Source: Prevotellaceae bacterium
GTDB lineage: Bacteria; Bacteroidota; Bacteroidia; Bacteroidales; Muribaculaceae
Length of the DNA: 64,000 nucleotides
Assembly (NCBI GenBank): GCA_021772015.1
Contig: JAETNS010000001.1
Span: forward strand, 186,001 to 250,000
Direction of reading: 5' to 3'
Each line of letters starts with the position of its first letter. Positions within the stretch are counted from its first letter, which is position 1. A program made the translations under genes and the position numbers. The notes under the pieces were generated by a model, which did no database searches, was not told where the DNA came from, and saw only the letters and a program-made list of their open reading frames with translations. Positions 4,484-33,850 of the stretch are shown here, one piece after another.

Positions 4484-4532
4484 CAGCCGCTTTATATATT
4501 TTATTACTCACTTCTCAAACATCTCTGAAAGA

Positions 4533-4808
4533 ATGCATCTGAATTCTGACGAAAAAATCGAGATCTTCGAGAAATACGGTAAGGGTAAGACTGACACTGG
4601 CTCTCCTGAAGCCCAGATTGCATTGTTCTCGGTCCGTATTGCTCATTTGACTGAACACCTCAAGTCAAATCACAAAGATCATACAACCGCTCGTGCTCTT
4701 AAGGCCCTCGTCGGCAAGCGTCGCCGCCTTCTCGACTACCTGATCAAGAAGGACATCAACCGCTACCGCGCCATCATCGCCCAGAAAGAGCTCGGCATCC
4801 GCAAGTAA
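4533..4808 (+). CDS. rpsO: 30S ribosomal protein S15
   Basis: KYGKGKTDTGSPEAQIALFSVRIAHLTEHLKSNHKDHTTARALKALVGKRRRLLDYL. Confidence 0.97.
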   Translation: MHLNSDEKIEIFEKYGKGKTDTGSPEAQIALFSVRIAHLTEHLKSNHKDHTTARALKALVGKRRRLLDYLIKKDINRYRAIIAQKELGIRK

Positions 4809-7170: not shown

Positions 7171-7976
7171 ACGATACCTTGCTGAAACTTGACAATGTCG
7201 CTGTAGGCTACGGGGGGATTCCCCTTTACGAGGATGTGAACCTCCGGGTCAGCCGTGGTGAGATGGTGACGTTGCTTGGCGCGAATGGAGCCGGCAAGTC
7301 GACACTGCTCCGCTGCGTGACCGGGCGACTCGCCCCGTTGCGCGGCCATGTCGAGATCACAGGCCGCTCTTTGTCTGGGATTCCGAAAGGGGAGCTTGCC
7401 AGGCTGGTCAGCATTGTCAGCACAGATCGTGCGCTGGCCGGAGCGTTGACTGTCGAGGAACTGGTTGCCCTTGGCCGGCAGCCTCATACCGGTTTTTTCG
7501 GCAGATTGTCGCGCCGCGACCGTGAGGTTGTAAGCTGTTCTTTGGAAGCAGTCGGTATGGCTGCGTTCTCTTCCCGTCAGGTCGCTTCTCTCTCCGACGG
7601 CGAACGACAGAAAGTGATGATTGCCCGTGCCTTGGCACAGGAAACCCCGGTAATGGTTCTTGACGAGCCGACCGCTTTCCTTGATGTCGCCTCCCGGCTT
7701 GAGACTCTTCAGCTCCTCTCCCGTCTCGCCAGGAATGAAGGGAAAGCGGTGATTCTCTCATCACATGATGTTTCCTCTGCCCTCCGCCTCTCCCAACGCC
7801 TCTGGCTGATTGTCGAGAAATCAGACGGGGAAGGCAGTCATGGAAGTTGCCGCCGTGGCCTGATTGACGGCTCCCCTCGCGAGCTGATCGAAAGCAATGC
7901 TCTTTCGTCCCTCTTCCCCGGCCGCCACGTCACTTTTGACTCTTCTCTCCTTGACTTTCTCCCTGATGCTTTATGA
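7167..7976 (+). CDS. ABC transporter ATP-binding protein (FecE/BtuD-like)
   Basis: Walker A GANGAGKST, signature LSDGERQKVMIARAL, Walker B VMVLDEPT; ATGA overlap with the permease stop. Confidence 0.92.
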   Translation: MNDTLLKLDNVAVGYGGIPLYEDVNLRVSRGEMVTLLGANGAGKSTLLRCVTGRLAPLRGHVEITGRSLSGIPKGELARLVSIVSTDRALAGALTVEELVALGRQPHTGFFGRLSRRDREVVSCSLEAVGMAAFSSRQVASLSDGERQKVMIARALAQETPVMVLDEPTAFLDVASRLETLQLLSRLARNEGKAVILSSHDVSSALRLSQRLWLIVEKSDGEGSHGSCRRGLIDGSPRELIESNALSSLFPGRHVTFDSSLLDFLPDAL

Positions 7977-30593: not shown

Positions 30594-33029
30594 ATGAAAA
30601 GAGTGCCTGACAATCAGATTCCCGATATAGGTCAATCCATTATGCGATTTTTCCCTTATCGTTGCAGCAAGCGGTTCTTATCAGCCTGCGTGATCTTTTT
30701 TTGTAGTACCATTTGCTCCTTGGCCCAGATAAAAGGTAGGGTTGTAGATGACAAAGATGTTGCGGTGGAGGGCGCGGCGGTAGTGGCGTTGCAATTGCCA
30801 GACAGCATTTATCTCGGAGGAGCGTTATCAGATCAGGAGGGCGGTTTCGTCATTAAAGAGGTGTCGACGAAAAAAAGTGTGGTTCTGCGGGCCGAGGCGA
30901 TCGGTTATGAAAAAACGACAGTTGAGGTATCGGGTGACTCATATCCGAAAATAATCCTGCGACATAATGGGATAGCTCTTGACGAGGTTGTTGTCGAAGC
31001 ACCCAAACTGACGGTATCTCCGGGGAAATTCACATTTTATCCCGGCGATATAATCAAGGATGTCAATGACGCGTTTTCGGTGCTGAAATACGTTCCGTTG
31101 ACAAGACTTGACGAGATGAGGAATGATGTCTCGATACTCGGGGAAGCGACCAAAATTCTGATCAACGGGAAAGAGCCTATCATGTCTTCCGATGGCATAA
31201 TGCAGATGTTGCGGGGGTCCGATGCCGCGAGGATAAAGAAGGTTGAGTTGATATTGCAACCGGGAATCGCTCGGCAAGGAGAGGGTCCAATATTGAATAT
31301 CGTCATTGCTCCCCGGACAGGAAGCATGGGTACCGCCGACCTTACCATGACATGTAATCAGAAGTTCTCATCGCGTCTGCAGTCATGGTATGGAGGCGAG
31401 TGGGACAAATGGCAGTTCTCAGCCAATATATACTTAACGGAGTCGCAAGACAAGCGGGAAAGGGAATCCACCTACACTACTTACGGCTTGTCTTCTTCGG
31501 AATCAGCCTATGACAACCTCGGCGTGACTTCTATTATAAGCAAGCATTCAACAAGCAAGGCTGAAACAACCTCCTATTCTATCGCGGGAAATGTCGGGAC
31601 AAGTGTTGATCTTGGTCATGACAACTCTCTCGGAATGTCGGTTAGAGCCGATATGGGCAGCAGTGACGGTAACACAACGGATGTCATAAGATTTTCGCCC
31701 GGTGATGCCGTCAATGTGGCCGATAACCGGTCAAAGTCGCCATTCAGGCCGGGATGGATACTCGGGCGACTGAACTATGACCACAATCTCGATTCCCTTG
31801 GAAGTCAATTGAGGCTGTCGGCTTTTTACCAAGGGCATTTCGACCGTGAGGAGGTCTCATTCATTCCTGTCAGTGTGATGCAGGCTTACAAAACAGCCTC
31901 TGACATCAATGCGATACAGGTGAAAGGTGACTGGAACAAGTATTTCAACGACAGGGCGAGCATAGATCTTGGTTTCGACTCATTCCATGACCGGATCAAG
32001 CGTCAGATGCGCAGAAGTGCCGACGGTTCCCTCTCCGGCTTATTGAGTCTCGATGACGATCTGCGGCAATTGCAGACACAGTTTGACATTTTCCTCTCAG
32101 GGGAATATGAGTTCTCATCCCTATTCTCCATGAGTGCCGGGGCCAGAGGAAGATGGTACCGCCGCGAGATCGACCAGTATGTACAGAGTGTCAACCGAAA
32201 GTTCGAGGATTTCTATATTCTTCCGACTCTGTCGGCGAGCTTCGCTTTCAATCAGAATAATATGGCCACGGTCGGTTACACCGCCACTGTGGAGCAACCG
32301 CGTTATTTCAACACCAATCCGATCTCCTACTGGCTGTCACCCGATTATTATTACACAGGAAATCCCGACCTGAAAGCGAGCAACGTACATACATTTTATC
32401 TCAACTATTTCCTTTTGCAGAAAATCAACTTCGGGGCCAAAGGGATCCTGAAAGACAATCTCGTGCAACACGCCACATTGCCCGGAGAAAACGGTGTGAC
32501 ATACCAGAAACCGATGGAGGTCAGCAACTCAAAGGAGTTTGAACTGACCGCAGGCTATTCCGACGCGTTTTTCTCCCACCGGTGGAGCATCTACGCCAAT
32601 GCCACCTATAATCTTAGCCGTCTCGACGACAGCAACCTTCCGGTCTCAATGACACGCAGCTCGGAAACCAATTCTAAATTGCGGCTTTACCTCTCCACTG
32701 ATCTTACCTTAGGGAGCGACAGGTCATGGTCGATCGGGCTTGCCGGCAGTTATCAGTCACCCGTCCATACGGCCTTTAACAATCATAAAGGATACGGGGA
32801 TATCGACCTTACGATCTTCAAACATTTCAAATTCGGGGGTAGGCTGATGGTCATGTTCTACAATATACTCAACCACAAGACCAAGTCATGGTATGATTGC
32901 GAGGCTTATTCCCAGTCATCGCGCTGGCTTACGGGCTATCGCTCGATAGTTGTAAAATTCGACATATCTTTCGGTAAGAGTTTCCGTATGCGCAGCAACC
33001 CCTCCTATGGCGAAGTCGACGGCCGTTGA
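30594..33029 (+). CDS. TonB-dependent-receptor-like outer membrane beta-barrel with CarboxypepD_reg N-domain (OM barrel 1)
   Basis: AQIKGRVVDDKDVAVEGAAVVALQLPDS..., plug-like region (ALDEVVVEAPKLTVSPGKFTFYPGDIIKDVNDAFSVLKYVP), barrel with ISYWLSPDYYYTGNPDLKASNVHTFYLNYF; paralogous to 35287-37683. Confidence 0.88.
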   Translation: MKRVPDNQIPDIGQSIMRFFPYRCSKRFLSACVIFFCSTICSLAQIKGRVVDDKDVAVEGAAVVALQLPDSIYLGGALSDQEGGFVIKEVSTKKSVVLRAEAIGYEKTTVEVSGDSYPKIILRHNGIALDEVVVEAPKLTVSPGKFTFYPGDIIKDVNDAFSVLKYVPLTRLDEMRNDVSILGEATKILINGKEPIMSSDGIMQMLRGSDAARIKKVELILQPGIARQGEGPILNIVIAPRTGSMGTADLTMTCNQKFSSRLQSWYGGEWDKWQFSANIYLTESQDKRERESTYTTYGLSSSESAYDNLGVTSIISKHSTSKAETTSYSIAGNVGTSVDLGHDNSLGMSVRADMGSSDGNTTDVIRFSPGDAVNVADNRSKSPFRPGWILGRLNYDHNLDSLGSQLRLSAFYQGHFDREEVSFIPVSVMQAYKTASDINAIQVKGDWNKYFNDRASIDLGFDSFHDRIKRQMRRSADGSLSGLLSLDDDLRQLQTQFDIFLSGEYEFSSLFSMSAGARGRWYRREIDQYVQSVNRKFEDFYILPTLSASFAFNQNNMATVGYTATVEQPRYFNTNPISYWLSPDYYYTGNPDLKASNVHTFYLNYFLLQKINFGAKGILKDNLVQHATLPGENGVTYQKPMEVSNSKEFELTAGYSDAFFSHRWSIYANATYNLSRLDDSNLPVSMTRSSETNSKLRLYLSTDLTLGSDRSWSIGLAGSYQSPVHTAFNNHKGYGDIDLTIFKHFKFGGRLMVMFYNILNHKTKSWYDCEAYSQSSRWLTGYRSIVVKFDISFGKSFRMRSNPSYGEVDGR

Positions 33030-33079
33030 TGTCCCAAAAATTATTTTAGAAAAAAGTTTTTCAGTTTTCTTAAAAATTG

Positions 33080-33140
33080 TTTGGAATTTCAAAAATATCA
33101 TTATATCTTTGTGAACGGGTAAGTTTCGTCTCCGAAACTT
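33080..33140 (+). promoter_or_regulatory. Promoter plus 5'UTR hairpin module, copy 2 (upstream of precursor 1)
   Basis: TTTG (33080-33083), 20-nt spacer, TATCTTTG (33104-33111), perfect inverted repeat AAGTTTCG-TCTC-CGAAACTT (33121-33140). Confidence 0.7.
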
Positions 33141-33171
33141 GCCGGTGCGTCAATCATCAAAACTCTGACCA

Positions 33172-33477
33172 ATGAAAACAGAAAGAGACAATCAGCTTGC
33201 CAGAGTGGAGCAATTCCTCGGCAAACTCCGGAAATCAGAATCCTCCGACTCGGTGATCCTCCTCGGCTCCGAAATGGAAACCATCGGCGCGTCCAATTCC
33301 AAGGATAAGGTGCCAACAAATGGCAATTGTACTAACAACAGGCCAGAAAATTGTCGTTTATCTAATGGTAATTGCGCCAATTATGAGAGTGCGTGTGGTA
33401 CTTCCTCCAATGTCAAATGCCTGAATTTAGACAGAAAAATGGAGGCGGATGACTGGCAGCCCCATAAAGGATCCTGA
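33172..33477 (+). CDS. Putative RiPP precursor peptide 1
   Basis: 101 aa; leader NQLARVEQFLGKLRKSESSDSVILLGSEMETIGA; core with 5 Cys (NCTNNRPENCRLSNGNCANYESACGTSSNVKCLN); adjacent to rSAM/SPASM and PCAT genes. Confidence 0.75.
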   Translation: MKTERDNQLARVEQFLGKLRKSESSDSVILLGSEMETIGASNSKDKVPTNGNCTNNRPENCRLSNGNCANYESACGTSSNVKCLNLDRKMEADDWQPHKGS

Positions 33478-33557
33478 TCATATTTTATATCCCTCCGTAT
33501 AACAGTATCGTCGTGGTCACTCCGACCTCGACACCTCAACTCTAAATATCTTTGTTT

Positions 33558-33842
33558 ATGAAACAACCAAACCAACTTGCCAGAGTGGAGCAATTCCTCG
33601 GCAATCTCCAAAAAGATGCGAACTCTGCGTCCGTGATTTTGTTGGACTCAGAAATGGAATCCAATGGTTCCAATGGCGTTAGTCCCAAAGCTAATGCTGT
33701 ATGTACAAATACAGAGGCTGCAGCCTGTGGATCAAATGGGAAATGTGCCAATTTCGGTAAGGCCTGTGGGGGTGCATCCAATGCATCAAAATGCGATAAT
33801 TTTGTAGAAGTTGTAAGTAAGGACCCTTGTTCAGCTAGGTAA
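33558..33842 (+). CDS. Putative RiPP precursor peptide 2
   Basis: ATG start at 33558; leader NQLARVEQFLGNLQKDANSASVILLDSEMESNGS; core with 6 Cys (VCTNTEAAACGSNGKCANFGKACGGASNASKCDN...DPCSAR). Confidence 0.78.
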   Translation: MKQPNQLARVEQFLGNLQKDANSASVILLDSEMESNGSNGVSPKANAVCTNTEAAACGSNGKCANFGKACGGASNASKCDNFVEVVSKDPCSAR

Positions 33843-33850
33843 CTTATCGT

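Follow-up and report, generated by a model that had tools for sequence, protein, structure and literature searches.

An rSAM gene cluster of a Muribaculaceae genome with two paralogous precursor peptides of alternating Asn and Cys

The streptococcal ranthipeptide NxxcA, whose maturase is NxxcB, contains one bridge, a Cβ thioether between Cys23 and Asn20 (Caruso et al. 2019, reviewed in PMC8326336). Freyrasin contains six Cys-Asp thioethers (PMC8326336). In Bacteroidales, the available text of PMC10352776 describes nine RiPP clusters associated with a C39-peptidase ABC exporter (PCAT), which encode a radical SAM (rSAM) enzyme with LanC-like or YcaO proteins, an rSAM enzyme only, or LanM.

Here we analysed a 64,000-nucleotide stretch (the window) of a genome assigned to Muribaculaceae. 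These are common gut bacteria, and the literature that we found says little about their modified peptides. Our analysis showed a real RiPP cluster, probably of the ranthipeptide kind. Clusters of this type are familiar; what is new is the strict alternation of Asn and Cys in the precursor cores and the chain of Cys-Asn rings predicted from it. No family or description of these precursors was found in Pfam, NCBIfam or the literature, and the papers that our searches on Cys-every-fifth peptides, TIGR04463 and Muribaculaceae RiPPs turned up do not describe this precursor group.

The gene cluster and its two precursor genes

The cluster is compact, extends from 30594 to 39877, and contains six genes: an outer-membrane beta-barrel protein (OMP1), two precursors (P1 and P2), an rSAM/SPASM enzyme, a second barrel (OMP2) and a PCAT (Table 1). 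We take the gene upstream of it to be rpoC-like and the one downstream to be glycyl-tRNA-synthetase-like, from our own reading of the translations. The cluster lacks a gene for a membrane fusion protein; the genome has such genes only at other places. For product export, uptake or immunity, the linked barrels are candidates. The two barrels are 43% identical to each other. We also observed that these two paralogous barrels flank two paralogous precursors; possibly there is one receptor or immunity protein per peptide.

Table 1. Positions of the cluster features in the window.
Feature	Position	Strand	Evidence or remark
OMP1, outer-membrane beta-barrel	30594..33029	+	CarboxypepD_reg + OMP_b-brl_3; linked in relatives
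Putative Bacteroides-type promoter-like site upstream of P1, TTTG-N20-TATCTTTG	33077..33111	+	pattern scan
P1 precursor gene	33172-33477	+	101 aa
P1 leader (MKTERDNQLARVEQFLGKLRKSESSDSVILLGSEMETIGA, 40 aa)	33172..33291	+	GG column in alignment with 24 related precursors; predicted cleavage point
P1 core and stop, five Cys alternating with Asn	33292..33477	+	sequence and alignment
P2 precursor gene	33558-33842	+	94 aa; 33558 is the likely ATG
P2 leader, 38 aa, ends ...EMESNGS	33558..33671	+	alignment
P2 core and stop, five patterned Cys and a C-terminal sixth	33672..33842	+	sequence and alignment
Strong hairpin between P2 and the rSAM gene, 21-nt arms	33845..33907	+	-29.4 kcal/mol, z -7.45
rSAM/SPASM peptide maturase, 429 aa	33919..35208	+	CNFRCWYC, SPASM cysteines, N-terminal RRE-like region
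OMP2, outer-membrane beta-barrel	35287..37683	+	CarbopepD_reg + OMP_b-brl_3; conserved near rSAM and PCAT in relatives
PCAT, C39-peptidase ABC exporter, 723 aa	37706..39877	+	PF03412 (E 3.8e-32), PF00664, PF00005

An initial annotation of the window had reported P1 and P2 as duplicated precursors with a shared stretch of identical DNA. Both open reading frames proved real and correctly placed, and the identical stretch is 29 nt long, with copies starting at 33196 (P1) and 33576 (P2). It is contained in a 94-nt direct repeat (33190-33283 and 33570-33663, 74% identical). The DNA of P1 and P2 is 75% identical over 87 nt in the leader and 48% identical in the core, and the annotation was right to see duplicated precursors that share their leader and differ in the core. 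The residues between successive Cys number 7-6-6-7 in P1 and 7-5-6-8 in P2, which makes Cys-to-Cys steps of 8, 7, 7, 8 and 8, 6, 7, 9, respectively. These spacings, the sixth Cys of P2, and the CTN, CAN and C(L/D)N triplets are as first described. A third precursor copy was sought in the host genome and not found. Pfam and NCBIfam scans of the two precursors gave chance matches only, and no NCBIfam model fits them.

The promoter-like site before P1 was located with what we take to be the Bacteroides-type consensus. A separate promoter right before P2 was rejected: for the TATCTTTG at 33547, the scan gave no upstream element spaced in the usual way. The hairpin between P2 and the rSAM gene is a probable attenuator or mRNA-stabilising element. 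Hairpins of unrelated sequence also follow many, not all, of the related precursors, the position being kept and not the sequence. Such an arrangement suggests that attenuation or protection of the mRNA raises the yield of precursor over that of enzyme.

The same genome has a second rSAM cluster (L143:4118-14882; G000 contig 1) with two rSAM genes, a second PCAT and a barrel-sized protein. That cluster also encodes a 64-aa GG-leader peptide with the core ECVNASKGCGAGVDQLRCLNAVTGCG (CxN-x4-C twice).

Relatives, leader and predicted cleavage

Relatives of the rSAM enzyme were found in 35 of 198 genomes at E <= 1e-30 in a family-level search, and a scan of public genomes gave 71 loci. The gene order precursor, rSAM, OMP, PCAT recurs in the relatives, and 7 of the 10 OMP-position proteins scanned match PF14905. 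The precursor profile matched 28 of the 397 genomes searched in the family, and of 396 sampled across the phylum it matched the window's own genome alone. Precursors with an NCN core are confined to one branch of the rSAM tree (support 96/97), with two short variants inside it, and the NCN label changes twice on this tree versus 11.5 times in shuffles. The core pattern is co-inherited with this one rSAM clade.

Inside the same rSAM clade, L050 and L055 (Bacteroides fragilis S82) encode short variants whose leader is of the same type, with cores such as CTNAGCTNPSDTRDDVDCKNVSCVNAGC. A typical Bacteroidales-type cluster, with its rSAM match split over two frames, was also present in a record titled Eubacteriaceae MAG (L075); this is a probable binning error.

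The leader is conserved. Most of the related leaders have [KR]-[IV]-x-x-[FY]-[IVL]-x-x-[LIM] near the N-terminus in the alignment, and the P1/P2 version of this motif is RVEQFLGxL. The clade-wide form R-I-x-x-F-[IVL]-x-x-L is likely the recognition site of the rSAM enzyme. Further along, the column that holds GA in P1 (IGA) and GS in P2 (NGS) is GG in most relatives (e.g. VIGG, MGG), and GG, GA or GS is aligned at the leader/core junction across homologues. Because the canonical GG occupies the same column, and a C39-peptidase ABC transporter is encoded in the cluster, the PCAT likely cleaves after A40 in P1 and after S38 in P2, which supports the cleavage after G(A/S) that had been predicted. 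The hydrophobic spacing before this site had been called non-canonical, and it is indeed imperfect in P1 and P2; it is nearer the usual one in relatives (e.g. SLVLSVPTQVIGG in L037).

Since the first search had used the CxN pattern, we built an HMM of the leader only; its training on pattern-selected peptides leaves a mild bias in the result that its clear matches carry an Asn/Cys-type core. The exception is a disrupted reading frame in L033. At this locus (G097) there are two paralogous precursors (4505-4802 and 7565-7849) with leader DNA 98% identical, a similar 5' UTR and core DNA 50% identical, and this comparison suggests leader homogenisation between the paralogues. The disruption lies in the leader of the upstream copy and is either real or an assembly error. 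Strong leader homogenisation was rejected as a general trait, the pairs of L041 and L047 being without it.

Alternation of Asn and Cys in the core

We aligned 27 related precursors first and 25 in a second alignment. In the latter, the invariant columns are C53, N55, C61, N65, C68, N70, C75 and C83 (P1 numbering). The Cys region is conserved among homologues, and precursor peptides of further genomes retain the Asn/Cys pattern. The C-x-N pattern pointed out in the initial annotation is real and not due to chance, but it captures only one half: Asn and Cys alternate strictly along the core, and each Cys has a preceding Asn.

Among the 27 precursors, which are kin, so that comparison with shuffles overstates their independence, every inter-Cys gap contains Asn (108/108, versus 79 in shuffles) and all of Cys1-5 have Asn at -3 to -6 (135/135, versus 71.8 and a maximum of 85). 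The odd Cys have Asn at -3/-4 in 78 of 81 cases (shuffles 26, maximum 40). They have Asn at +2 in 73 of 81 (shuffle mean 13.8, maximum 23), where Cys1 was defined as the first CxN and the less biased counts are those of Cys3 (27/27) and Cys5 (19/27). The even Cys are at chance in both respects, with Asn at -3/-4 in 16 of 54 and at +2 in 8 of 54 (expected 9.3); the Asn preceding Cys2 and Cys4 is at -4 to -6. That P1 and P2 are small ORFs rich in Cys and Asn by coincidence, and unconnected with the rSAM enzyme, has nothing beyond composition in its favour. It is refuted by the comparative data, as the leader, core pattern and cluster order are conserved across many genomes and shuffles never reach the observed counts, and we give it practically no credence.

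The rSAM enzyme and the direction of Cys-Asn pairing

A precursor adjoining a radical SAM/SPASM maturase, as looked for in a ranthipeptide locus, was found here. The C-x3-C-x2-C motif and the SPASM cysteines of the enzyme are invariant among 45 relatives. Its best NCBIfam models were the TIGR04463, CefB, geopeptide, Clo7bot and PapB maturases, and all scores were far below the cut-offs: TIGR04463 gave 189 bits (E 1.2e-55; cut-off 525), CefB (NF038107) 148 bits (cut-off 600) and PapB (NF047865) 118 bits (cut-off 340). The SCIFF maturase model (TIGR03974, CteB) gave 84.8 bits (cut-off 425), and the RumMC model gave 55 bits. In the AlphaFold2 model (pLDDT 93), the enzyme is predicted to have a fold closest to that of CteB, a thioether-forming maturase (5why/5wgg, TM 0.66-0.69; 5why 0.69 by query length), and CteB (5wgg) was also the top match in a sequence-profile search. 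Residues 1-80 of the model form three strands and then helices, which we take to be the topology of RRE domains.

We propose that P1 and P2 are precursors of ranthipeptide-like Cys/Asn-rich RiPPs: the rSAM enzyme would link each Cys to the Asn ahead of it, and the PCAT would then remove the leader and export the product. We consider this probable, with much room left for doubt. The leader motif RVEQFLGxL would be bound by the N-terminal RRE-like region of the enzyme, which would abstract hydrogen from Asn side chains and join each Cys thiol to the Asn before it. The product would have up to five consecutive Cys-Asn thioethers with two alternating ring sizes, using Asn at -3/-4 for Cys 1, 3 and 5 and Asn at -4 to -6 for Cys 2 and 4. 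The PCAT would cut after GA (P1, residue 40) or GS (P2, residue 38) and export the product, and the dedicated beta-barrels may act in its release, uptake or immunity. The biological role would most likely be interbacterial.

Cys to Cα thioethers are also products of SPASM rSAM enzymes with this general fold, and SkfB (6efn) was among the structural matches of the model. P1 and P2 could accordingly be sactipeptides, with the Asn at acceptor or only at loop positions. We regard this as quite improbable, because the best fold and profile matches are CteB, PapB scores well above RumMC, and a strict Asn requirement would fit side-chain activation better than Cα chemistry. Less probable again, and in our opinion very unlikely, is that the mature peptide holds its Cys as disulfides or as metal ligands, the rSAM enzyme acting elsewhere, for example on the conserved Asn. 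Disulfides are frequent in exported Cys-rich peptides, and metal acquisition would fit the linked barrels. However, the patterned Cys are odd in number (five) with one Asn each, and their pattern is co-inherited with an rSAM clade, the nearest known relatives of which are thioether-forming.

The pairing might also run in reverse, each Cys being joined to the following Asn (C-x-N at Cys 1, 3 and 5, and a longer C-to-N distance at Cys 2 and 4), as in the rings of freyrasin, where we take Cys to come before Asp. The C-x-N spacing is exact at Cys1 and Cys3 (27/27), Cys4 has Asn at +5 in 24 of 27, and freyrasin and its maturase PapB use Cys-Asp pairs. On the other hand, the ends of the array differ. 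Cys5 is without a following Asn in 8 of the 27 precursors and Cys1 always has a preceding one, and the absence of Asn after Cys5 counts for preceding-Asn pairing, which expects this Asn to be dispensable. Six sister precursors have Cys at every fifth residue; all of them place Asn at -3 of the first Cys, and only three place it at +2 of the last, one array ending on its Cys. Natural end effects of this kind (first Cys, last Cys, a lost Cys1, an extra Cys with an extra Asn) are built-in mutants able to decide the pairing direction. The L119 precursor has lost Cys1 and keeps Asn before each remaining Cys, and in L131 an extra Cys is accompanied by an extra Asn. The array ends together with L119 and L131 favour pairing with the preceding Asn, as in NxxcA. 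The opposite direction is unlikely on balance; it keeps some weight, as few sequences bear on the question and Asn remains enriched after Cys5.

Among the sister precursors with Cys at every fifth residue, L066, L067, L089 and L091 have Asn (sometimes Asp) at -3 of each Cys. Three sister precursors of this type were scanned against NCBIfam, and no model was above its cut-off.

Several observations count against the proposal of ranthipeptide-like precursors with preceding-Asn pairing. Asn after Cys5 is far above chance, which the model does not need. Cys2 and Cys4 sit 4-6 residues after their Asn, longer than in the known NxxC ring. The L143:7636-7830 precursor (C-V-N-x4-C), from the second cluster of the same genome, has no Asn close before its first Cys. 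The NCBIfam scores of the enzyme below every curated cut-off and the lack of a membrane fusion protein gene in the cluster are to be counted here too.

Comparison with described systems

The fuller proposal is that a single rSAM enzyme forms, on each of two paralogous peptides, five successive Cys-Asn side-chain thioethers in two alternating ring sizes, and that these peptides are poly-NxxC-like ranthipeptides concentrated in Muribaculaceae and kin, exported by the PCAT and paired with dedicated barrels. We hold it tentatively, as possible and somewhat short of probable. The strict Asn-Cys alternation offers a ready test of how one rSAM enzyme selects the acceptor, the size and the direction for each of five rings.

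The locus resembles the PCAT-associated clusters of Bacteroidales in its rSAM enzyme, GG-type leaders and PCAT, and some of those clusters also have a PCAT and an OMP without a membrane fusion protein; in the available text of PMC10352776, however, precursors with alternating Asn and Cys are not mentioned for the nine. The TIGR04463 maturases of Cys-rich peptides are the best NCBIfam match of the enzyme, but the enzyme falls below that cut-off and the precursors match no NCBIfam model. As in the CefB Cys-every-fifth system (NF038107), sister precursors of the wider rSAM family have period-five C-x-N-x-x repeats, whereas the spacings of P1 and P2 alternate and are longer. The CefB model had no match at E <= 1e-90 in 393 genomes of the order, where the controls gave no match either.

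Like NxxcA and NxxcB, the system has a radical SAM/SPASM maturase; Asn would be the partner of a Cys a few residues downstream, and a Cβ thioether is predicted. Unlike NxxcA, P1 and P2 place an Asn before every one of five Cys, in two spacings that alternate; they belong to another phylum, and their cluster includes a PCAT and OMPs. With freyrasin and PapB (NF047865) they would share the nature of a poly-thioether ranthipeptide with repeated Cys/acceptor motifs. The acceptor in freyrasin is Asp, and the enzyme here scores far below the PapB cut-off; the predicted chain would add Asn as a repeated thioether acceptor beside the Asp of freyrasin.
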